Below are positions 2,506 through 46,314 of a stretch of DNA of 64,000 nt, piece after piece (positions within the stretch are counted from its first letter, which is position 1; each line of letters starts with the position of its first letter). Under the pieces are notes generated by a model. It was not told the origin of the DNA and made no database searches. It saw only the letters and a program-made list of their open reading frames with translations. The position numbers and the translations under genes were made by a program. Source of the DNA: Spartobacteria bacterium. Lineage in GTDB: Bacteria; Verrucomicrobiota; Verrucomicrobiia; Chthoniobacterales; UBA10450. The stretch spans positions 1 to 64,000 of the forward strand of contig PLCN01000013.1 of the NCBI GenBank assembly GCA_003134785.1. Reading direction: 5' to 3'.

Positions 2506-4839
2506 ATGAGTCCTGTCTATACCTTCCTTATCCTGCTGGGTCTGCTGATTCTTTTCGGCTGGTATTTCGCCACCGATCATGGAGCGCGGAAACGCATTCT
2601 CGCCCTGGCTTTGATGGCGTTGCTGGTCACCTTCAGCCTCATCACGATTTATCCGCCGGACAAACAAATCCGGCTCGGCCTGGATATCCAGGGCGGCACT
2701 TCGTTTCTGATCCGGCTGGAGCAAGGGGACAAGGAAATCACGAAAGAGATGCTCGACCAGGCGGTCGAGGTGATCCGCAAACGCGTCGATTACTTCGGCG
2801 GCGGCGAGCCGGTCATCAGCCCGGTGGGGAAGGACCGGATCATGGTGCAGATCCCCGGATTGGGCGCGGAGAAAATTGAGGAGGCGCGTCAGCAACTCTC
2901 GCGCGTGGCGAAGCTCGAATTCCGCCTCGTTTATCCCGATAACGGCCAGCGCCTGCAAGCGATCGACGCCAAAACGGATGTGATTCCGCCGGAATATAAG
3001 ATCGAGGTTTACAAAGCTCACGCGGAGGAGGGCAAGAAGCCGCGGGAAGAGCGGCTCCTCGTGAAAAAGAAATCTGACCTGGGCGGCGAGCATGTGACTT
3101 CCGCGCACGCTGGATTTGGCAACGACGGCTGGGAAGTGTCGCTCAATTTCGACAGCGAAGGCGCGAAGACATTCGGTAAGATCACCGAACAACATGTGAA
3201 CCATCGGTTCGCGGTCGTGCTCGACGGCGTGATTCAATCGGCCCCCAACATTCGGGAGCCGATTTACGGCGGCAACGCGCGCATTTCGGGAAGTTTCGGG
3301 GAGCAGGAAGCGCGCAGCCTCGCCAGCGTGCTGGAAAATCCGCTGCAAACGCCGGTGAGGATCGAGGAAGAGCGCAGCGTTTCGCCTACGCTCGGAATGG
3401 ATTCGATTCGCGCGAGCATCATCGCGGGTCTCATCGGTCTCGCGCTCACGCTCGTTTGCGTGATGATCTATTATAAATTCGCGGGTCTGATCGCGAACCT
3501 GGCGTTGCTGATCAACATCATCCTGCTCATCGGCGCGCTAACGATGTTCAACTTCGTGCTGACCCTGCCCGGCATCGCGGGCATCATTCTCACGATCGGC
3601 ATCGCGGTGGACGCCAGCGTGCTGATTTACGAACGGTTGCGCGAGGAGCTGGCGCTCGGGAAGTCGCTCAACATCGCCGTCCAATCGGCTTACGACAAAG
3701 CCTTCAGCTCGATCTTCGACGCGAACGTCACGACGCTGATCACAGCGGCGATCCTGTTCTGGAAGGCGAGTGGCCCCGTGAAGGGGTTCGCCATTTCACT
3801 TTCTCTCGGAATCCTGGCGTCGCTGTTTACGGCACTGATCGTGGGGCGGAATGCGCTCAGTTGGTTTGTCGAGACCGGACGCGTCAAGCGCATCTCGATG
3901 TTGCACTTGATCTCGTCACACAATTTCAATTTTCTCGGCAAAGGTTTCATCGCGTGCATGTGCTCGCTCGCCCTCATCATCGCGGGGGCGACGGCGTTTC
4001 ACATCCGCGGGGATCGCAACTTCGGCGTGGATTTCAGAGGGGGCGACTTGATCACTCTGAGTACCACGCAGCCGGTTTCCGTCCACGACGTGCGCCAGTC
4101 GCTGGAACCGATTCATCTCGGCGAGGCGCTCATTCAGGAATCGGCACAAGGCGGAAAGAATTACATCACCATCCGGAGCGCGATCAACACCAGCGAGGCA
4201 ATCGAAAAGCAGGTGGCCAAAGCGATGCCGCAAGCGCAGTTCAAAGTCGAGCGCGCCGAACGCGTGGGTGCGCTGGTCGGCGGCGAGCTGGCCAAGACTT
4301 CGCTCTGGGCGCTGGGTCTCGGCATTCTCGGCATTCTCATTTTTGTCACGTTCCGTTTTGAATTGTCGTTCGCGGTCGGCGCCATCGTCGCCGTGTTGCA
4401 TGACGTAATCATCACCGTCGGCGTATTTTCGCTCCTCGGGCGCGAGTTGACTCTCACCATGGTGGGCGCGGTGCTCACCATCGCCGGGTATTCCATCAAC
4501 GACACGATCGTCGTCTACGATCGAATCCGGGAAGGCCTCGCCAGCAGCAAACGTGGTTCGATCGAGCAGATTATGAACGACAGCATCAATCAGACTTTGA
4601 GCCGCACGATCCTGACCAGCACGGTGACGTTGATCCCGATTCTCTGCCTCTTTTTCTTTGGCGGCCCTGTTTTGCGGGACTTCGCGCTGGCGATCATCGT
4701 CGGTGTGGTGGTTGGAACCTATTCGTCGATCTTCATCGCCGCGCCAATTGTGCTTTGGTGGACCCGCGCGCGAGGCGGCAGCGCCTCGTTGCGCCGGGAG
4801 GTGGCTGAGAAGGCGGCTGCGACTGGACCGGCGCTGTAG
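2506..4839 (+). CDS. secDF: protein translocase subunit SecDF (fused)
   Basis: A 777-residue fusion of SecD and SecF, which use the proton-motive force to pull preproteins through SecYEG. The SecD half has N-terminal membrane helices, the motif GLDIQGGTSF near residue 60, a periplasmic P1 region and a membrane bundle with GIAVDASVLIYERLREE. The SecF half starts near residue 490 with NFGVDFRGGDL and carries SINDTIVVYDRIREGL, the matching transport motif. There appear to be two hydrophobic segments before P1 rather than one. Single-chain SecDF is known in several phyla. It follows yajC in the same direction. Confidence 0.96.
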   Translation: MSPVYTFLILLGLLILFGWYFATDHGARKRILALALMALLVTFSLITIYPPDKQIRLGLDIQGGTSFLIRLEQGDKEITKEMLDQAVEVIRKRVDYFGGGEPVISPVGKDRIMVQIPGLGAEKIEEARQQLSRVAKLEFRLVYPDNGQRLQAIDAKTDVIPPEYKIEVYKAHAEEGKKPREERLLVKKKSDLGGEHVTSAHAGFGNDGWEVSLNFDSEGAKTFGKITEQHVNHRFAVVLDGVIQSAPNIREPIYGGNARISGSFGEQEARSLASVLENPLQTPVRIEEERSVSPTLGMDSIRASIIAGLIGLALTLVCVMIYYKFAGLIANLALLINIILLIGALTMFNFVLTLPGIAGIILTIGIAVDASVLIYERLREELALGKSLNIAVQSAYDKAFSSIFDANVTTLITAAILFWKASGPVKGFAISLSLGILASLFTALIVGRNALSWFVETGRVKRISMLHLISSHNFNFLGKGFIACMCSLALIIAGATAFHIRGDRNFGVDFRGGDLITLSTTQPVSVHDVRQSLEPIHLGEALIQESAQGGKNYITIRSAINTSEAIEKQVAKAMPQAQFKVERAERVGALVGGELAKTSLWALGLGILGILIFVTFRFELSFAVGAIVAVLHDVIITVGVFSLLGRELTLTMVGAVLTIAGYSINDTIVVYDRIREGLASSKRGSIEQIMNDSINQTLSRTILTSTVTLIPILCLFFFGGPVLRDFALAIIVGVVVGTYSSIFIAAPIVLWWTRARGGSASLRREVAEKAAATGPAL

Positions 4840-5219: not shown

Positions 5220-5323
5220 GCTGCTGCGCGGCAACTTATAGCAGCGGCGCTCCATTCCTGCTCGAGTGCCGGCTGAGTGGCGCGGCAAATTCAGCTCTCG
5301 GGGTGCGCTCCCGCTGAAAAGCA

Positions 5324-5481
5324 TGTCATCCCGAGCCGCGCAGACGGCGAGGGACCTCCCATTCGCTCACCCGTTTACTCGCGCCAACGGCACGTCCTTT
5401 ATGGTAACGGCGCCGTGGGGCGCAAGCTAATCCGCACTGCAACTGCGAGGTCCCTCGCAGTCTCCGCGGCTCGGGATGACA
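5324..5481. repeat. 158-bp element with 35-bp inverted terminal arms
   Basis: The left arm (5324-5358, starting TGTCATCCCGAGCCGCG) and right arm (5447-5481, ending CGGCTCGGGATGACA) are inverted repeats with only a few mismatches. They enclose about 88 bp of non-coding sequence. The structure resembles a MITE or large REP element. No transposase is nearby. Confidence 0.7.
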
Positions 5482-5498
5482 AACGAGTGGCGCCGTCT

Positions 5499-5523
5499 CG
5501 GCGGTCATAGACCGCCGCTACAG
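5499..5523. repeat. GGCGGTCATAGACCGCC palindrome, copy 1
   Basis: An inverted repeat GGCGGT-catag-ACCGCC followed by GCTACAG. The same unit recurs at 12055-12079, 19143-19167 and, in variant form, at 38931-38955 and 40345-40373. It sits between the MITE-like element and the end of the FGE-domain gene. Confidence 0.75.
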
Positions 5524-5525
5524 AA

Positions 5526-7157
5526 TTAGTCGCATTCGCACACGATCCGGAAGCCGAGATCGTTGCAGGAATAGTTTGGCATGTTCGAGCCCCGGGCCGT
5601 CGCCCGGAGGCTGTTAAAGCGCGATTTCCAACTGCCGCCTCGATAGACACGCTTCGCTCCGGCGGTTGGTCCTCGTGGATTCACTTTCGGGGTGCCGCGA
5701 TACGGTTCCAAAAAATCCAGGCACCACTCCCAGACGTTGCCCGCCATGTCTTCCATTCCGAAGGGGCTGGTGCCAAAAGGAAACGCGCCCACCGGCGAAC
5801 TTTCGGGATATCCATCGTCGATCTCCCGGTCGCTCCAGGCAAAAACGGTATTTCGATCCGCGAAGTTCCCCAGATCGCCGCGCCCATCATGATTTCCCCA
5901 GGGGTATTTGCGGCCATCCGTCCCCCGCGCCGCGTACTCCCACTCGGCCTCGGTCGGCAGGCGATATTTTTTCCGCTCACGCGTCGAAAGAGATTGGCAA
6001 AACTTGATCGCATCCAGGCTGCTGACATACACGACCGGGTGGCGGTCACTGGCGCCCGTTGCGCGTTTCCGTTCGTGCGTGTGGTCGAACTGCTCGTATT
6101 CGCCGTTCGTGATCACGTGTCGCGACATGTAAAACCGGCTCAACGTCACTCTCGTAAGCGGCCGTTCGTTCGGCCCGGCATCAATGGCCTCGCTTCCCAT
6201 CGTGAATTCGCCTGAGGGAACGAAGAGCATCTGGCCGCCAACCGAATTGACGTAGTTTCCGAAGCGCGCCCGCTCACTCACGACGTCGGTTACCACCACG
6301 ACTGGCGTCTCAGAAACAACTTCAACTATTGGCGCTGGTTTCGCGGTCGCCAGCGGCACGGCCGCGCGCGGTGGCGGCAACGCATCTGGATCGGACCTCT
6401 TATCGGCCTCGTCCAAGTAAAGATCGACGAGGTCTTCCGCCTCGGCCGGTTCGATACCGAGATTCTCCGCCATGTTGACGAAGGCATCCCGCGTGTCGTC
6501 CGCCATGCCGTCGCTATCGAGGCCGCTCAGCCGAAGCATCCGGAGAAAATCTTCCTTGGGATCCAGCGATTTCTGCCGACGCGCTCGCGCTTCTCTTCTC
6601 GCTTCGCCCGACACTGAAGGAGCCAGGGGCGGCAGTGCCGCGTTCGCTACCACGCGATGCGCCCCGCTGTCTTTCAACTCAGCTTCGATGTAGGCAACGA
6701 TTTGCTCCTCGTTCAGACTCTGCTCGGCCCCGAAACGATAAAGGCTCTTTTCTTCCTCCGCGGTCAGAAATCCATCGGCGAGGGCGAACGTCAGATATTT
6801 GTGGAACTCAATGACCGCTTGTTCGTTGGCTTGGGCGGCCAACTCGTCATCGACTTGCTGACGCCGAGCCGGATCCAAAAGCTCGACGCGAGCCTCCGTC
6901 AGGTAACGCGACGATTCGTCCAGGCCCGGCCGCAGCAATTGCGCCAGCGGGTTGCTCGGCTGGTTCTTCAACGGCAGCTTTTTCTGCCACCACCGCATCA
7001 GTTCGCGGCAACGCTCTTCGATGATTTCGTTGCTCGGATTCGCGCGTGGATCGAGGCAAAGTCGCTCGTAAAAATTGGGCGATTTGTACTTGCTCCAGCC
7101 ATCCCATTTCTGCGGATCGTCCGGCAGCGGGACAGGAAAATTCCTCTCGACTTGCAT
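5526..7157 (-). CDS. J-like / TerB-like / FGE-sulfatase domain fusion protein
   Basis: A 543-residue cytosolic protein, last gene of the Hsp70 module. Residues 20-108 look like a degenerate J domain: FYERLCLDPRANPSNEIIEE at the start and ARVELLDPARRQQVDDEL at the end, but with no HPD. Residues 115-162 (ADGFLTAEEEKSLYRFG) and 200-252 (FVNMAENLGIEPAEAEDL) resemble small TerB-like helical units. After a Pro/Ala/Val linker, residues 300-543 form an FGE/SUMF1-type domain with FVPSGEFTMGSE, RLPTEAEWEYAARG and DMAGNVWEWC. The segment YRGGSWKSRFNSLRATARGS lacks the catalytic cysteines of true formylglycine-generating enzymes, so binding rather than oxidation is likely. The AGGAGA ribosome site overlaps the hsp70 stop, indicating translational coupling. 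Confidence 0.85.
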   Translation of the reverse strand: MQVERNFPVPLPDDPQKWDGWSKYKSPNFYERLCLDPRANPSNEIIEERCRELMRWWQKKLPLKNQPSNPLAQLLRPGLDESSRYLTEARVELLDPARRQQVDDELAAQANEQAVIEFHKYLTFALADGFLTAEEEKSLYRFGAEQSLNEEQIVAYIEAELKDSGAHRVVANAALPPLAPSVSGEARREARARRQKSLDPKEDFLRMLRLSGLDSDGMADDTRDAFVNMAENLGIEPAEAEDLVDLYLDEADKRSDPDALPPPRAAVPLATAKPAPIVEVVSETPVVVVTDVVSERARFGNYVNSVGGQMLFVPSGEFTMGSEAIDAGPNERPLTRVTLSRFYMSRHVITNGEYEQFDHTHERKRATGASDRHPVVYVSSLDAIKFCQSLSTRERKKYRLPTEAEWEYAARGTDGRKYPWGNHDGRGDLGNFADRNTVFAWSDREIDDGYPESSPVGAFPFGTSPFGMEDMAGNVWEWCLDFLEPYRGTPKVNPRGPTAGAKRVYRGGSWKSRFNSLRATARGSNMPNYSCNDLGFRIVCECD

Positions 7158-7161
7158 TCTC

Positions 7162-8724
7162 CTAGGCGACCGCGATTGCGCCTAAGGCCGCTGCAGCGCG
7201 CTCGACTTCATCCGGCGCCAGGCCGGTATTCCGTTCGATCGTCACCTTCGCTTCGTTGCCGCAAGCGTTGACCGCCACCTCGAGGACCTGGTTCGCATTG
7301 TATTCGTAGGTCAGCTCGACCGGCGAACCTTTCGGCAGAAATGCGGGCAGCTCGACTTCGCACAAACCGAGCGGCGTGCATTCCGCCGGCAAAGTGCTCT
7401 CGCCTTCCACGATCCGGACGCGCGCGTGCCGCATGTTGGCGCTGGCGGTGCCGAAAGAATTCTTCGCGGTCGCAGGCATTGACGTCATTTTCGGGATCAT
7501 CGGAAAAACATATTCCTCGAGGTGTCCCTCATCCCAAAGCACGACGCCGAGCGTGTGCGAAGTAATGTTGGTCACCTGGACCAGGCCGCCATCGCGTGCG
7601 GAAAATTGTTGGCGTGTGTCTTCCGGCAGCGTTTTCACCCCGGAAATTTCTTCTTCCCGCAACTGCGACAAAATCGCCTGGATGGCCGCGCCGACTGCGA
7701 CTGCTTCATCCGGATTCACGTCATCGACTACCGGAATCGACGAAAGCTGCGTGATCATTTCACGCACCATCGGCATTCGCGTCATCCCGCCGACGAGAAG
7801 AACCTTGTTCATATCACTCCAAGTCAATTTCGCTTCCTGCAAAACTATCTCGCAAATCGTTTTGCATTTCTCCACCAGATGCCGCGTCTTCTGCTCGAAT
7901 TGTTCCCGGGTCAGCTCGACTTTCACGCTCTTGCCGTTGTGACTGTGGACGATGGCGGTGCGCGGCCGGCTCGAGAGCTGGATTTTTGCGGCCAGCGCGC
8001 GACTCTGGAGGTCCTGGTAGCTTTGCATATCAAGCAGCGGATTCTCGCCGTGCTCGCGATCGAATTCCTCCGCGACGTGATTCACAATGACATCGTCCCA
8101 GTCCTTGCCGCCCAGGCGATGGTCGCCATTGGTCGCCAACATCTCGATGCCATTTCCCTGGATGCGCATGATGGTGACATCGAACGTTCCGCCGCCGAGA
8201 TCGAAGACGAAAACCGTCTGGTCTTCATCGAGTTTGTCGAGGCCGTAGGCCACGGCCGCGGCGGTCGGTTCGTTGATAATCTGGAGGACGTTGAGCCCGG
8301 CGAGCTGACCCGCGGTGATGGTGGCCGTGCGCTCGGCGTCGTTGAAATAAGCCGGCACGGTGATCACAGCATCGGTCACGGGTTCTTTCAGGTATTTCTC
8401 CGCGTCGGCCTTGAGCTTGCGCAAGATGAGCGCCGAAAGTTCTTCCGCCGAATAAATCTTCCCGTCGAATTCGCGATGAAATTGTTCCTTCGGCTTGCCC
8501 ATTTCACGCTTCACGAAATCAACAATCCGTTCCGCCTCCGCCACCGAATTATTCTTGGCCAGGGTGCCGACGATCACGCTCGCGCCATCGAAGAGAATGA
8601 CCGAAGGCGTAATGCGTTCGCTCTCCGAATTCGGGATGATTTGCGGCTTTCCGTAGATGTCGATATGCGAGACCGCACAGAAGGTCGTGCCAAGGTCAAT
8701 GCCGATTGCTTTTCTTCGAGTCAT
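7162..8724 (-). CDS. lidless Hsp70-family chaperone (DnaK-like)
   Basis: A 520-residue Hsp70 homologue. ATG 8724 gives MTRRKAIGIDLGTTFCAVSH, the first phosphate loop. Later come VITVPAYFNDAERTAT, INEPTAAAVAYGLD, VFDLGGGTFDV and LLVGGMTRMP, so the ATPase domain is complete. A beta-sandwich substrate domain follows (from about residue 385), but the chain stops soon after it, roughly 100 residues shorter than classical DnaK, so the helical lid is absent. It sits between a GrpE-like gene and a J-like/FGE fusion, indicating a dedicated Hsp70 system distinct from the housekeeping DnaK. Starting at 8790 would add 22 residues with no Hsp70 character. Confidence 0.92.
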   Translation of the reverse strand: MTRRKAIGIDLGTTFCAVSHIDIYGKPQIIPNSESERITPSVILFDGASVIVGTLAKNNSVAEAERIVDFVKREMGKPKEQFHREFDGKIYSAEELSALILRKLKADAEKYLKEPVTDAVITVPAYFNDAERTATITAGQLAGLNVLQIINEPTAAAVAYGLDKLDEDQTVFVFDLGGGTFDVTIMRIQGNGIEMLATNGDHRLGGKDWDDVIVNHVAEEFDREHGENPLLDMQSYQDLQSRALAAKIQLSSRPRTAIVHSHNGKSVKVELTREQFEQKTRHLVEKCKTICEIVLQEAKLTWSDMNKVLLVGGMTRMPMVREMITQLSSIPVVDDVNPDEAVAVGAAIQAILSQLREEEISGVKTLPEDTRQQFSARDGGLVQVTNITSHTLGVVLWDEGHLEEYVFPMIPKMTSMPATAKNSFGTASANMRHARVRIVEGESTLPAECTPLGLCEVELPAFLPKGSPVELTYEYNANQVLEVAVNACGNEAKVTIERNTGLAPDEVERAAAALGAIAVA

Positions 8725-8828
8725 GGGTGCGAATAATTTTGGGTTGAGCGAAAACGTGATTCCGCACCACCGTACAGGTGCAATTTCCATGCCCGAGCCG
8801 AGGGGGAATGCTGCGGCTTATTCGAACC

Positions 8829-8856
8829 TAATGCCGCTTCGCAAAGGCGAAGCGCG
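8829..8856. repeat. short palindrome, GCCGCTTCGC type, copy 2
   Basis: The sequence gccgcttcgc-aaag-gcgaagcgc in the hsp70 leader is related to the unit at 4838-4866, with a different loop. It lies in the 163-bp gap between the grpE-like stop and the hsp70 start. Confidence 0.5.
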
Positions 8857-8887
8857 ACACGCCTCGTTTAAGCGAAATGACAGCGAC

Positions 8888-9595
8888 CTACTGGAAGCGT
8901 TTCGCCACCACTTCTTCCGGCCGTAAAACCTGGTCGCGCCAGAGAAAACCACGCTTAACGCGCATCACGATCCGGCCATCATCCTCCGCGAAATCCGCAG
9001 GCTCGTAGCTGACGACACGATGGAAGGCGCGATCGACCATTTCCTTCGGTTCGATTTCGTTCACTTCCATGCGGTGCAGGATCTCGGTCAGAGAATGGAT
9101 CGAGTTCTCCAGATTATCCCGCCACTGCCCCTGCTTGCCGCGCTTGGTTTCGCTCGCTTCCTCCGCCGCTTGGAGCTGGGACGAGAGCGCGCTCAAATCG
9201 TCGAACAAAATGACCAGGTCGCGAATGAACGGTTTCTGCAGCGATTCATGCAGGAAATTGTCGCGATATTTGATCAGCTCCTCGTGAAGCGAATCGAAGA
9301 GCCGCTGATTCACACTTTCCGTGTTGCGCAGCGCCGCCATGTGCTCGTCCATTTTGGAAAATTGCGCGGTGAGATCGATCGGCTCCGCGCTGGACAATTT
9401 CTCGAGCCGGCTGGCCACCGTCTCTTCAAGATTTTGCAGACGTCCGTTCAACCGGCGAAATTCCTCCAGGAGCTGCGCGTGTTGCTCGGCGCTTGTGTTG
9501 CGATCGTCCCAGGCGTTCTCCGGCCGTGTTTTTTCCGCTTCGGCGCTCAACTGCTGCATGGTCGAGGTAAATTCGTCTGTGATCTTGATTTTCAT
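8888..9595 (-). CDS. grpE: GrpE-like nucleotide exchange factor
   Basis: A 235-residue GrpE homologue, the exchange factor that releases ADP from Hsp70. ATG 9595 is preceded by AAGAAGG. Residues about 35-140 are predicted coiled coil (LLEEFRRLNGRLQNLEETVASRLEKL), longer than in many GrpE proteins. The C-terminal half has the GrpE head pattern: HRMEVNEIEPKEMVDRAFHRVV, then IVMRVKRGFLWRDQVLRPEEVVAKR. It follows cobA-hemD by 25 bp and precedes the lidless hsp70, its presumed partner. Confidence 0.85.
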   Translation of the reverse strand: MKIKITDEFTSTMQQLSAEAEKTRPENAWDDRNTSAEQHAQLLEEFRRLNGRLQNLEETVASRLEKLSSAEPIDLTAQFSKMDEHMAALRNTESVNQRLFDSLHEELIKYRDNFLHESLQKPFIRDLVILFDDLSALSSQLQAAEEASETKRGKQGQWRDNLENSIHSLTEILHRMEVNEIEPKEMVDRAFHRVVSYEPADFAEDDGRIVMRVKRGFLWRDQVLRPEEVVAKRFQ

Positions 9596-9620: not shown

Positions 9621-11135
9621 TCAGAAAAATTTTCGGATTGCCTCAACCAAACCCATGATGTCGTGGCGTCGCGCTTCGATCGCCACCTCCAGCCCACGCT
9701 CGTGCGCGGTGGCCGACGTCACCGGTCCGATGCTGGCGACTTGCATGCCAGCCGGCCAGGCGAGACCGAGGGCAAGAAAATTTTCGACCGTTGACGAGCT
9801 GGTAAATGTGATCAAATCAGCGCCTTCCTCCAATAAACGGCGCCGCGCGCCGGTAACGTCGCGCGTTTCGGGGACCGTGCGGTAGGCAAAACCTTCATCC
9901 ACAATAGCTCCCAAAGCCGAGAGCTCCTTGGGTAGCAAATCCCGCGCCTTTTCCGCGCGAGCGAGAAGAATGCGCAAATTCTCCACGCCTCCCTGCTTGC
10001 GGAATTCGCGCACGATCGATTCGGCCACGAACTCTTCCGGCTGCAGATCAACCTTCAGATGAAAATCCTTGATCCGCTGCGCAGTCGCGGGACCAATGGC
10101 GGCGATGCGAACGCCGCCGATCTCGCGCGCGTCGTTGTAAAGCTTGTAAAACAAATCGAAGAAAGCCGTCACGCCGTTCGGGCTGGTGAAGACGATCCAG
10201 TCGTACGAGTGCGCGTCCTGCACCAGCTCGGCGAACGCGCGCAGATCGCTCGGCGGTTCGATCCGAATCGTCGGCAGCTCGATCACATCGGCGCCGAGTG
10301 CGCGCAATTGTTCGCTCAGGACGCCAGCTTGCGACCGGGTCCGCGTCACCACGATTCGCTTGCCGGAAAGCGGCTGATCTTCAAACCAGCTCAGTTCATT
10401 GCGCAATGCGACCACGTCGCCGAAAACGACGACGGCTGGCGCGGTGAATCCGCTATCCGCAACACGCCGCGCAATATTTTCGAGATTTCCCACGAGCGTT
10501 TCCTGCCGGCCGGTGGTGGCCCATCGAATCAACGCCACCGGCAGATCGCTTCGCATTCCGTTCGCCAGCATTTCGCGCGCGATCGCTTCGATTCGCTCCA
10601 CGCCCATCAGCATCACTTGCGTGCCACCGAGTCTGGCGAGCGCCGCAACGTCGATTGAGGTCCCGGATTTTTCCGGATCTTCGTGGCCGGTGAAAAAGGT
10701 CACGTGCGAATTCTTTCCCCGATGTGTCACCGGAATTCCGGCATAGGCGGGCCCCGCAATCGCCGAAGTTATTCCGGGAACGACGACAAACGGCACATGC
10801 GCCGCGGCGAGCGCTTGGGCTTCTTCCGCGCCGCGTCCAAAGACAAACGGATCGCCACCCTTTAACCGAACAACCTGTTTCCCGTCTCGCGCCTTATCGA
10901 CCAGAAGCGCATTGATTTCATCCTGCGTCAGCGTGTGCGCGCCTGCTTTCTTTCCGGCGTAGATGATCTCGGCGCTTTCCGGCGCCCATTTCAGCATTTC
11001 GGGGTTGGAGAGGTAGTCGTAAACGACCACGTCCGCCTGCTCGATGCATTGCTTCGATCGGAGCGTCACCAACCCCAGATCGCCGGGCCCGGCGCCGACT
11101 AGAAAACATTTCCCATTTGGTTTCTTATCCGCCAT
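9621..11135 (-). CDS. cobA-hemD: uroporphyrinogen-III C-methyltransferase / uroporphyrinogen-III synthase fusion
   Basis: A 504-residue bifunctional enzyme. The N-terminal half is a SUMT methyltransferase making precorrin-2 for siroheme or cobalamin: VGAGPGDLGLVTLRSKQCIE, VVRLKGGDPFVFGRGAEEA and the SAM-binding GITSAIAGPAYAGIPVTHRG. From about residue 255 it is HemD-like (GKRIVVTRTRSQAGVLSEQL, FTSPNGVTAFF, LITFTSSSTVENF), which cyclises hydroxymethylbilane to uroporphyrinogen III. The start ATG 11135 overlaps the hemC end by 11 bases. This CobA-HemD fusion is known in several bacteria. Confidence 0.95.
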   Translation of the reverse strand: MADKKPNGKCFLVGAGPGDLGLVTLRSKQCIEQADVVVYDYLSNPEMLKWAPESAEIIYAGKKAGAHTLTQDEINALLVDKARDGKQVVRLKGGDPFVFGRGAEEAQALAAAHVPFVVVPGITSAIAGPAYAGIPVTHRGKNSHVTFFTGHEDPEKSGTSIDVAALARLGGTQVMLMGVERIEAIAREMLANGMRSDLPVALIRWATTGRQETLVGNLENIARRVADSGFTAPAVVVFGDVVALRNELSWFEDQPLSGKRIVVTRTRSQAGVLSEQLRALGADVIELPTIRIEPPSDLRAFAELVQDAHSYDWIVFTSPNGVTAFFDLFYKLYNDAREIGGVRIAAIGPATAQRIKDFHLKVDLQPEEFVAESIVREFRKQGGVENLRILLARAEKARDLLPKELSALGAIVDEGFAYRTVPETRDVTGARRRLLEEGADLITFTSSSTVENFLALGLAWPAGMQVASIGPVTSATAHERGLEVAIEARRHDIMGLVEAIRKFF

Positions 11136-12108
11136 TAATTCGCTCCAGTAACTCGGCCGCGAAGCGTTCGGCGCCATTAGTGATTGATCCTTCCACTTCT
11201 GCCGAACGCGGTTCCAATTTTCCCGGCTCGAAGACTTGGGCGCGCACTCTCGCTCTTTCCGCCTCGACGATTGCCAGCACGCCCACCGGCGAATCGCAAT
11301 CGCCCTGCAGCAACCGCAAGAATTCGCGTTCCGTCCGCAAACAGAAAAGCGTGTCTATGTGATTTATTCGATTCACGATCGTCTTTGCATCTTTATCATT
11401 GGTTCGAATCTGCAACGCAATCACACCCTGGCCGCCAGCGGGAAGAAATTGATCGCGTGGCAGAATCTCCGCGTGAAGTTGCGCGCCTTCAAAAGAGAAA
11501 GAACCGCCCGCCAACTCGTAACCGAGGCGTTCGATACCCGCGCGCGCCAGCACAATCGCGTCCCACTCGTTTGCCATCAGCTTGCGCAAACGCGTCGGAA
11601 CATTGCCGCGGAGATCGGCCACCTGGATCTGTGGGTATTTCCATCGCAGCTGATACTGCCGCCGGACACTTCCGGTCGCGACAATCGCGTTCGGTCGCAG
11701 CGATCCCAGACCCCCTGACACTTTGCCAATCAAGACATCATCCACTGCAGCGCGAGGCAACACGCCCCGCACGTCAAGTCCCGGGGTCGCTTCGCTCGGC
11801 AAGTCTTTCGCGCTGTGCACCGCAATGTCGATCCCGCCTCCCGCCAGAACGCGCTCGATTTCACCAGTGAAAAGTCCTTTGCGGCCCGCTCGCGGATCGA
11901 TCGGCTCGCTTGCCTCCAAGCTCCGCTCATCTCCATGAGTCTTGATGGTCTCGAGCTTGATTTCGAGTTCCGGCCACGCCCGTTGCAACTCTGTCGCCAC
12001 CATCGCCGTTTGCGCGCGGGCAAGTTCGCTGCCGCGCGAACCAAGGATGATCTTCTGTAGCGGCGGTCTATGACCGCCGACCGAGTTTGGTGAATCGTCG
12101 ACGCTCAT
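11125..12108 (-). CDS. hemC: hydroxymethylbilane synthase (porphobilinogen deaminase)
   Basis: HemC polymerises four porphobilinogens into hydroxymethylbilane. The 327-residue product has IILGSRGSELARAQTAMVA, the AVHSAKDLPSE loop, ATGSVRRQYQL, DLRGNVPTRLRKL and GDCDSPVGVLA with the dipyrromethane-anchoring Cys. The first 18 residues (MSVDDSPNSVGGHRPPLQ) are not family-like: residues about 11-18 are encoded by a copy of the dispersed palindrome at 12055-12079. The normal HemC start would lie just before IILGSRG, where no start codon exists, so the repeat seems to have been absorbed into the gene. It begins 9 bases after the hemA stop. Confidence 0.95.
   Translation of the reverse strand: MSVDDSPNSVGGHRPPLQKIILGSRGSELARAQTAMVATELQRAWPELEIKLETIKTHGDERSLEASEPIDPRAGRKGLFTGEIERVLAGGGIDIAVHSAKDLPSEATPGLDVRGVLPRAAVDDVLIGKVSGGLGSLRPNAIVATGSVRRQYQLRWKYPQIQVADLRGNVPTRLRKLMANEWDAIVLARAGIERLGYELAGGSFSFEGAQLHAEILPRDQFLPAGGQGVIALQIRTNDKDAKTIVNRINHIDTLFCLRTEREFLRLLQGDCDSPVGVLAIVEAERARVRAQVFEPGKLEPRSAEVEGSITNGAERFAAELLERINGG
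12055..12079. repeat. GGCGGTCATAGACCGCC palindrome, copy 2, inside hemC
   Basis: The unit reads ctgtagcggcggtctatgaccgccg on the plus strand and encodes part of the HemC N-terminal extension (GGHRPPLQ) on the minus strand. Other copies in this window are intergenic. Confidence 0.75.
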
Positions 12109-45177: not shown

Positions 45178-46314
45178 CTAGCCGCACCGACGCAGCGATA
45201 CATGAGCTGCCATCACCTTCCGATTGGCAATGGGACCCTGCGCCCAGGCTGCGATGGTTTTGGTGAAGACTTCGAGGCGCATTGTTCGCGTGGCTAGGTC
45301 TGACTTTAGCTGCCGTTCAACTTGAAGCCGCAACTCCGCATTCGGTCCGCTCTGCGCGAAATTCCACGCATCTTCGCCTTCCGCTTCCAACAAGCTCTTC
45401 TCCAGCGCTCGCAAAGCTCGCTCCAATTCTGTCAGGACCTCACGCATCTGGCCAAGGCTTGTCTGAGCACCCATGTGATTCGATTCGATGTCACTCAGGG
45501 CAAGCAGAATTTCCAAGCGCGCGACATCAATGGCCGCGTAAGCTTCCTGCACCTCGTGCCAAAGCGCGGAAAGGGCAGCATTCGCATCGGCGCGCAGATC
45601 AGGGTGCAATCGCCTAACGAGCTTGCGGTAAAGCTCCTTCACCCTCGCATCCACCCTCGCCTCTCCCTCTCCCTCTCCCTCTTCCTCTGACTCCACCTTG
45701 ATTCGCTTCTTCGCCCTCGGTCGATTGAGATTTCGCGGTTGCGCCTCTTCCAGTGGGCTTCGGAACATGTGCGACTTGAAGGCCTCGAACGTGGTCGAGT
45801 AGGCTTCGTCATCCATCTTATCCGGGTTAGTTCCGAGCGACCTTTGCACCCATTCCTGGAAGAGCGCTTCCTTTTCGAAGTCGCTCAGTTTCCTTGATGC
45901 TTCATCTCCTCCTCGAGAAGGATCGATTTCTTCTTCTTCGACCGCCGCGGAAGGATTGGCGCGGCGAAACATCACTCGCTGATAGGCGCTATGCGCGTCC
46001 TGAAAGGAGCGGCGCATTTCCATTTCGACTTCATGCACGAGCGTCTGGCAGTCACGGAGGTTCTCTTCCACTTCGCGCGCTCTGCTGAGCAGCGCACCAA
46101 ATTCGCGCGCCCGCCAGCGGACAAAAGCCGGCTTATCCTTGCGCTCAAAACGATGCCATCCGACGCGCGCATCTTCCAACCGCGCCATCGCGCGCGTGCA
46201 ATGAGCCACAGCCGTCTCTCGCAATGGCCCCTGATCGACCAGGACGATACAGCAGACGTTCAGATCATCTTTCGCTCCCGGTTTCGGTCTTGGCGCTGTG
46301 CGTTCTCGCGACAT
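45178..46314 (-). CDS. J-domain protein with coiled coils
   Basis: A 378-residue protein with a J-like domain in its middle third: VKELYRKLVRRLHPDLRADA carries the HPD motif at residues 237-239, needed to stimulate Hsp70 ATPase. Flanking regions are helical: residues 75-115 before (LRDCQTLVHEVEMEM) and 280-345 after (LTELERALRALEKSLLEAEG), with an acidic EEEGEGEGE stretch just before the J domain. This is not classic DnaJ (no G/F or zinc region); it may serve a dedicated Hsp70 such as the one at 7162. Confidence 0.8.
   Translation of the reverse strand: MSRERTAPRPKPGAKDDLNVCCIVLVDQGPLRETAVAHCTRAMARLEDARVGWHRFERKDKPAFVRWRAREFGALLSRAREVEENLRDCQTLVHEVEMEMRRSFQDAHSAYQRVMFRRANPSAAVEEEEIDPSRGGDEASRKLSDFEKEALFQEWVQRSLGTNPDKMDDEAYSTTFEAFKSHMFRSPLEEAQPRNLNRPRAKKRIKVESEEEGEGEGEARVDARVKELYRKLVRRLHPDLRADANAALSALWHEVQEAYAAIDVARLEILLALSDIESNHMGAQTSLGQMREVLTELERALRALEKSLLEAEGEDAWNFAQSGPNAELRLQVERQLKSDLATRTMRLEVFTKTIAAWAQGPIANRKVMAAHVSLRRCG

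Follow-up and report, generated by a model that had tools for sequence, protein, structure and literature searches.

A lidless Hsp70 and a probable J-like protein with an FGE-fold domain lack both partners of the HPD-R167 contact in Chthoniobacterales

In the DnaK-DnaJ pair, the aspartate of the HPD motif of the J domain pairs with R167 of DnaK and the histidine contacts linker residue L391, R167 pairing otherwise with D393; alteration of R167 or its partners makes stimulation by DnaJ ineffective, and mutants in R167 and HPD suppress each other (PMC7289447, PMC13012618, PMC8215388). The present work concerns three minus-strand genes located at positions 5,526-9,595 of a 64,000-nucleotide stretch of DNA (the window, positions 1-64,000 of contig PLCN01000013.1) from a Spartobacteria bacterium of the order Chthoniobacterales, phylum Verrucomicrobiota (assembly GCA_003134785.1; 4.39 Mb in 25 contigs, 97% complete). 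They encode a GrpE-like nucleotide exchange factor, an Hsp70 without helical lid and JTF, our name for a protein of 543 residues that combines a probable J-like domain, a helical middle region and a domain with the fold of the formylglycine-generating enzyme (FGE/SUMF1). To our knowledge, Hsp70s are generally taken to be triggered by the HPD motif in all cases, with R167 receiving it. In this conserved pair of Hsp70 and JTF both are replaced, with the normal DnaK-DnaJ systems of the same genome serving as an internal control, and this dismantled contact is of more interest than the FGE fusion alone.

Several described systems resemble the triad. Escherichia coli HscC-DjlC and HscA-HscB likewise consist of a specialised Hsp70 with its own J-protein, apart from DnaK-DnaJ; unlike the triad Hsp70, HscA and HscC retain the helical domain and R167, their partners are ordinary J-proteins and they belong to another clade. 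In the eukaryotic ribosome-associated complex, Zuo1 keeps its HPD and serves a second Hsp70, unlike JTF. The likeness to that complex lies in the stable pairing of an atypical Hsp70, Ssz1, with a J-protein (compare PMC10191838). Conflict systems centred on GAP1-N2 GTPases include a theme made of Hsp70, GrpE and an FNIII-DnaJ protein, and related systems use effectors with FGS domains (Kaur et al., 2020; PMC7159879). That theme and the triad both join GrpE and Hsp70 to a protein with a J domain, probable in the triad, and a large C-terminal domain, and the Akkermansia-type relatives of the triad Hsp70 are encoded in such a locus. The triad differs from it in having one Hsp70, an FGE-fold in place of FNIII and Q in place of R167, in its location in the core genome with vertical inheritance, and in the absence of an FNIII partner and of the GTPase and GAP1 genes that mark the neighbourhoods of such systems. 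Lastly, FGE/SUMF1 and other FGS domains share the PF03781 fold with the C-terminus of JTF, which differs from FGE/SUMF1 by the loss of both catalytic cysteines and by its fusion to a probable J-like domain. No paper on an Hsp70-DnaJ-FGE fusion was found in the literature.

The Hsp70 of the triad (520 residues; 7,162-8,724, minus strand) comprises a nucleotide-binding domain (NBD), an altered linker and a beta substrate domain. It matches PF00012 with E=3.9e-125 over profile positions 1-510 of 599, which places it in the Hsp70 superfamily, and the chain ends about 20 residues past the beta-sandwich, with TIERNTGLAPDEVERAAAALGAIAVA where the DnaK lid begins; match and early end together imply that there is no helical lid. 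The linker reads VQVTN instead of the conserved VLLLD of DnaK, so that neither hallmark of canonical DnaK is present. In a tree of NBDs, the triad Hsp70s form one clade (ultrafast bootstrap, UFBoot, 98) with two lidless Hsp70s of another genome of the order (G330) and two from a genome labelled Akkermansia-type on the basis of its features, and DnaK, HscA and HscC all fall outside. These data, together with the GrpE match to PF01025 and the gene linkage given below, bear out the view of an earlier sequence-only reading of the locus that a lidless Hsp70 sits here in a dedicated module with GrpE.

Residues at the J-Hsp70 contact were counted in 42 triad Hsp70 rows from 30 genomes and in 29 DnaK rows, among them the two DnaKs of the window genome. 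At position R167, where DnaK pairs with the HPD aspartate, all 42 triad rows have Q (Q148 in the window protein, codon at 8,281-8,283, minus strand) and all 29 DnaKs have R. The changes extend to K155 (I or L), E206 (R or Q), D326 (E), L391 (V or I) and L392 (T, R, S or I), each in 42/42 rows, and to D393, which is N in 33 of them; K155, D326, L391, L392 and D393 are kept, as is R167, throughout the DnaK rows, where position 206 is E or D. On the side of JTF, LPL occupies the place of HPD (residues 61-63; 6,969-6,977, minus strand) within a KLPLK segment found in 38/38 distinct Hsp70-linked JTFs. In helix II, these 38 sequences carry E47 at the basic position 22 of DnaJ and R51 at DnaJ K26, and 32 of them have E or D at residue 48 (DnaJ position 23); the basic positions 22/23 have become mostly acidic while E206 of the NBD became R or Q. 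Four orphan JTFs, encoded without Hsp70 or GrpE nearby, have largely lost E47 and R51 (R51 in 0/4, E47 in 1/4), as would be expected if these residues touch the Hsp70. Most simply read, these patterns mean that helix II has kept its contact with the Hsp70, its charges changed, and that the HPD-R167 trigger no longer exists.

We lean, with slightly better than even confidence, towards a private Hsp70 machine insulated from the housekeeping DnaK-DnaJ, in which JTF docks independently of HPD and its FGE-fold domain acts as client receptor. The J-like domain would dock on the lidless Hsp70 via helix II, and the joint loss of HPD and of the Hsp70 residues that answer to it (R167, K155, the leucines of the linker and usually D393) suggests that this docking does not depend on HPD; it might either hold the Hsp70 on JTF or stimulate it in a rewired manner. 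The FGE-fold domain would bind a ligand and so present clients to the Hsp70, whose lidless beta substrate domain may bind them weakly and release them fast, and the dedicated GrpE would reset the nucleotide. Housekeeping DnaJ should not drive the triad Hsp70 because R167 is gone, and JTF should not drive DnaK because HPD is gone, hence the predicted insulation of the pair. A further proposal, in which other chemistry (the LPL loop, and acidic helix II against arginine at 206) has replaced the HPD-R167 switch, leaving an Hsp70 orthogonal to DnaJ and a cysteine-less FGE-fold client receptor, is offered tentatively, as it seems to us rather doubtful. Natural proteins are at hand with which the question of an HPD-less J-like domain driving an Hsp70 becomes testable, along with a possible orthogonal Hsp70-J pair and a context for FGE-fold domains other than FGE enzymes.

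The loss of both HPD and R167 would also suit a JTF that works as a lock or inhibitor, its HPD-less J-like domain filling the J site and keeping the Hsp70 inactive until the FGE-fold domain binds its ligand. HPD-less Pam16, which restrains Pam18, is a model for such an arrangement, and the near one-to-one gene order with a spacing of 4 nt suggests similar amounts of both proteins. A pure inhibitor, however, would not need the Hsp70 to lose R167, and a dedicated GrpE suggests a working cycle, so that a lock is in our judgement unlikely. The private machine would also be poorly triggered by an HPD protein, the arginine needed by the HPD aspartate being lost. This bears on the alternative that an ordinary HPD protein from elsewhere drives the Hsp70 and JTF only brings clients, the candidates being canonical DnaJ and a protein encoded at 45,178, which the sequence-only reading had suggested as the true J partner. 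The genome does encode several HPD J-proteins, but with Q at position R167 the HPD aspartate has no partner, and the gene at 45,178 lies 36 kb away and is not tied to the triad: an open reading frame (ORF) of its type was found in a genome without the triad (G018) and was not detected in two genomes with it (G014 and G015). As this type does not follow the presence of the triad, its product is an unlikely partner, and we regard the alternative as a whole as very improbable. The gene itself (45,178-46,314) encodes 378 residues with a partial J domain, HPD included, in the C-terminal half, and several relatives carry ORFs like it, whether or not they have the triad.

The J-like domain of JTF spans residues 27-107 (6,837-7,079, minus strand). 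The reference set for hhalign consisted of E. coli DnaJ and 31 J domains of the order, 32 canonical sequences in all. Against it, JTF aligned in register over 67 columns, which run from the first helix through the DP..R...D end, with a score of 18.5 that was reached neither by 100 column-shuffled decoys (mean 10.2, maximum 16.1) nor by 40 slices of real-protein alignments (maximum 16.6, on a 12-column match). Smith-Waterman scores against J domains were reached by 0/500 shuffles for the JTFs of the window, L112 and L117; the orphan JTF L121 did not stand out (39/500). Pfam gave no hit for the N-terminal segment, and a JTF profile (A1) searched against PDB sequences returned chance hits only, with no J or TerB match. 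Single-sequence AlphaFold models of residues 1-170 and 22-112 (pLDDT 47 and 53, respectively) placed their helices in the order of a J domain, at too low a confidence to settle the structural check of residues 20-108 that the sequence-only reading had named. Comparison of these models by Foldseek and VIA-align gave no meaningful match, with no J domain among the matches listed. The earlier claim of a J-like domain without HPD finds support in the profile and pairwise comparisons and in the invariant LPL; we consider J-likeness probable. From the missing Pfam hit and the models without a J match it could be argued that this is no J domain and that JTF is a helical FGE-fold client or regulator made together with a specialised Hsp70. 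To this reading we assign a low probability, given the full-length match in register, the pairwise scores above all shuffles in three of the four JTFs and the J-like start of the corresponding gene in related modules.

The C-terminal domain of JTF (5,541-6,233, minus strand) matches PF03781 with E=2e-50, has the FGE/SUMF1 fold (a C-type-lectin fold) and finds its closest solved structures in human FGE (E ~3e-30), in agreement with the earlier description of an FGE-fold fusion in the position of a J-protein. In 46/46 sequences, RGGSWKSR (one with R for K) stands where FGE has its catalytic two-cysteine segment, and this RGGSW(K/R)SR stretch is three residues shorter in the alignment. With both cysteines lost, the domain is no formylglycine-generating enzyme by that mechanism, which fits the proposal that it is a receptor rather than an enzyme; by analogy with what has been proposed for other C-type-lectin-fold FGS domains, it is probably a ligand-binding domain. 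The middle region between both domains (residues 110-255; 6,393-6,830, minus strand) contains conserved helical segments, and helices appear in the low-confidence model of residues 1-170. Its assignment as TerB-like found no Pfam support in any of 19 orthologues: the TerB profile gave no match at E<=10, bearing in mind that distant relatives can escape profiles, and no Pfam family was common to most of these sequences.

Several observations weigh against a private machine. Docking is deduced from residue patterns, the 42 Hsp70 rows are related sequences that represent few independent events, and 9 of them still have D at position 393. The statistics of J-likeness are modest (hhalign E=0.013 in one comparison, z ~4 against decoys) and the AlphaFold models of the region are poor. 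In G330, the lidless Hsp70s retain R167 and D393 and the adjacent J-like protein has no HPD in its start, so the losses were not one inseparable step. The orphan JTFs persist without E47/R51, and thus part of the role of JTF may not need this Hsp70. Moreover, the sigma54-type element described below is present in none of four loci (0/4) from families of the order other than f1.

Among 197 Chthoniobacterales genomes searched, 112 of them good, the N-terminal part of JTF was detected in 70 (44 of the good ones) and the lidless Hsp70 in 70, with 69 genomes common to both. The genome with JTF only (G443) carries it 129 bases from a contig end, and the one with Hsp70 only (G330) has the other lidless type, at 42-47% identity. 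Hsp70 and JTF are therefore a genetic unit, the two exceptions being explainable, and the three genes are not the rarely adjacent set whose finding was to speak against the module. Upstream of the Hsp70, GrpE was present in 13/13 other triad loci with a contig long enough. In a spread of 288 genomes across the phylum, JTF occurred in four, all of this order, and was not found in the rest of Verrucomicrobiota; genus g5, of the same family as the window genome, lacks both Hsp70 and JTF. The triad seems to be vertically inherited within one order of Verrucomicrobiota. Relatives from a contig scan (80 loci) had a matching Hsp70 or GrpE in no case and are FGE-only relatives, except for L031, a partial orthologue at the end of its contig. 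Profile A1 found no relative in IMG/VR, and an approximate J-like consensus from Planctomycetota gave no match in plasmids or in G477.

Relatives of the module outside the triad help to place it. In G330 (L254:1-4217), GrpE and two lidless Hsp70s precede a J-like protein that has no HPD in its start and is cut off by the contig end, possibly an intermediate. The Akkermansia-type modules (L255:3399-11001 and L262:2238-10472) encode GrpE, two lidless Hsp70s with A or E at R167 and a 900-residue J-like protein without HPD that bears a zinc ribbon and, by visual inspection, FNIII-like repeats; next comes a zinc-ribbon P-loop protein. Since these modules match the Hsp70/GrpE/FNIII-DnaJ theme of the GAP1-N2 systems, the triad looks like a domesticated branch of this known type of module, inherited vertically and equipped with a J-protein of new architecture. 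That it still serves in defence or conflict, as a domesticated relative of that "theme 2" whose FGE-fold domain senses or strikes an invader, is suggested by the Hsp70 clade shared with the Akkermansia-type modules and by the description of such modules and of FGS-domain effectors (PMC7159879). The constant position in the core genome, with hem genes on one side and secDF on the other, the vertical conservation, the lack of a GTPase, GAP1 or effector neighbour and the weakness of the PADLOC matches speak against such a role, which we consider distinctly unlikely. The L262 module adjoins a gene for a type IV coupling protein. The kinship with the Akkermansia-type modules, the changes in the Hsp70, the orphan copies and the sigma54-type element had no place in the sequence-only reading.

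A sigma54-type -24/-12 element, GGCATGGAAATTGCAC, is located at 8,778-8,793 (minus strand), about 55 nt before the Hsp70 ATG. It has the GG-N10-GC spacing with TGGCAC/TTGC-like boxes of the sigma54 consensus (PMC12316311); its core columns are invariant in 11 aligned loci, and it is present in 28/28 loci of family f1. By chance, 0.05 such sites with up to 2 mismatches are expected in the window, and ~0.004 sites with a score >=0.85 per 36 nt. RpoN (PF04552) was detected in the window genome and in 20/20 genomes searched. The four orphan JTFs (L119:2634-4256, L120:6318-7934, L121:6826-8415 and L122:7341-8978, in genomes G004, G005, G006 and G009) are 50-58% identical to the window JTF and lie in unrelated neighbourhoods that are not conserved; all four have sigma54-type sites (scores 0.85-0.96) 30-48 nt before their starts, for which common descent could be part of the reason. 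With a strict pattern, three genomes yielded nine sites, a number not above that for a backward control pattern; the nine include the triad in 3/3 genomes and orphan JTFs in 2/3. No high-scoring sigma54 site was found in the dnaK1 and grpE-dnaJ stretches of the window genome. Control of chaperone genes by sigma54 has been reported in Planctomycetota and Bacteroidota, where dnaK/dnaJ/grpE-type genes carry such promoters as a likeness to the triad, the element being located here on a specialised Hsp70-JTF pair (PMC12316311). The sequence of the element and its conservation indicate that the Hsp70-JTF pair of family f1 is probably switched on by sigma54. The strict search also yielded GGCACGGGAGTTGC, located before a DUF4410 lipoprotein gene and kept in three genomes of the genus (L277:5273-5286, equivalent to G000:C20:80272-80285; also G005:C1 and G006:C34).

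Within the triad, the GrpE-like protein (235 residues; 8,888-9,595, minus strand) belongs to the GrpE family (PF01025, E=7.6e-13; 48.9 bits, cut-off 25.8), and its gene starts 25 nt downstream of cobA-hemD. By comparison, HscA and HscC are thought to work without GrpE (PMC8215388). The genome encodes two GrpEs, the second, canonical one adjoining canonical DnaJ on contig 24, as well as two lid-bearing DnaKs and more J-proteins, and the triad is thus an additional chaperone system. The Hsp70 starts at ATG 8,724, which is conserved among relatives; the start of the longest ORF, at 8,790, falls within the sigma54-type element. JTF (5,526-7,157, minus strand) begins 4 nt after the Hsp70 stop in the window and genus, -1 to 4 nt after it in family f1 and, in other families, 23-32 nt after it. 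The gap from GrpE to Hsp70 measures 163 nt in the window, where it includes the sigma54-type element, and 114-202 nt across family f1. The three genes had been described as a translationally coupled run; with a short gap and a long one, coupling is limited to the last two.

The surroundings of the triad are housekeeping genes, with hemA, hemC, cobA-hemD and a ccsA-like gene upstream, yajC, secDF and rpsU in convergent orientation on the other side and an apt-like gene also among the neighbours. The examined loci of genus and family show this arrangement again to the extent that their contigs cover it, and three further families of the order share it partly. The cobA-hemD gene (9,624-11,177), directly upstream of grpE, encodes a fused tetrapyrrole methylase and uroporphyrinogen-III synthase, and SecD and SecF are likewise fused (2,506-4,839). 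An Rfam scan of the window gave no match. Between the JTF stop and rpsU there is an imperfect inverted repeat (5,310-5,500), and the minus-strand RNA of 5,400-5,540 folds better than its shuffles (z -2.8).

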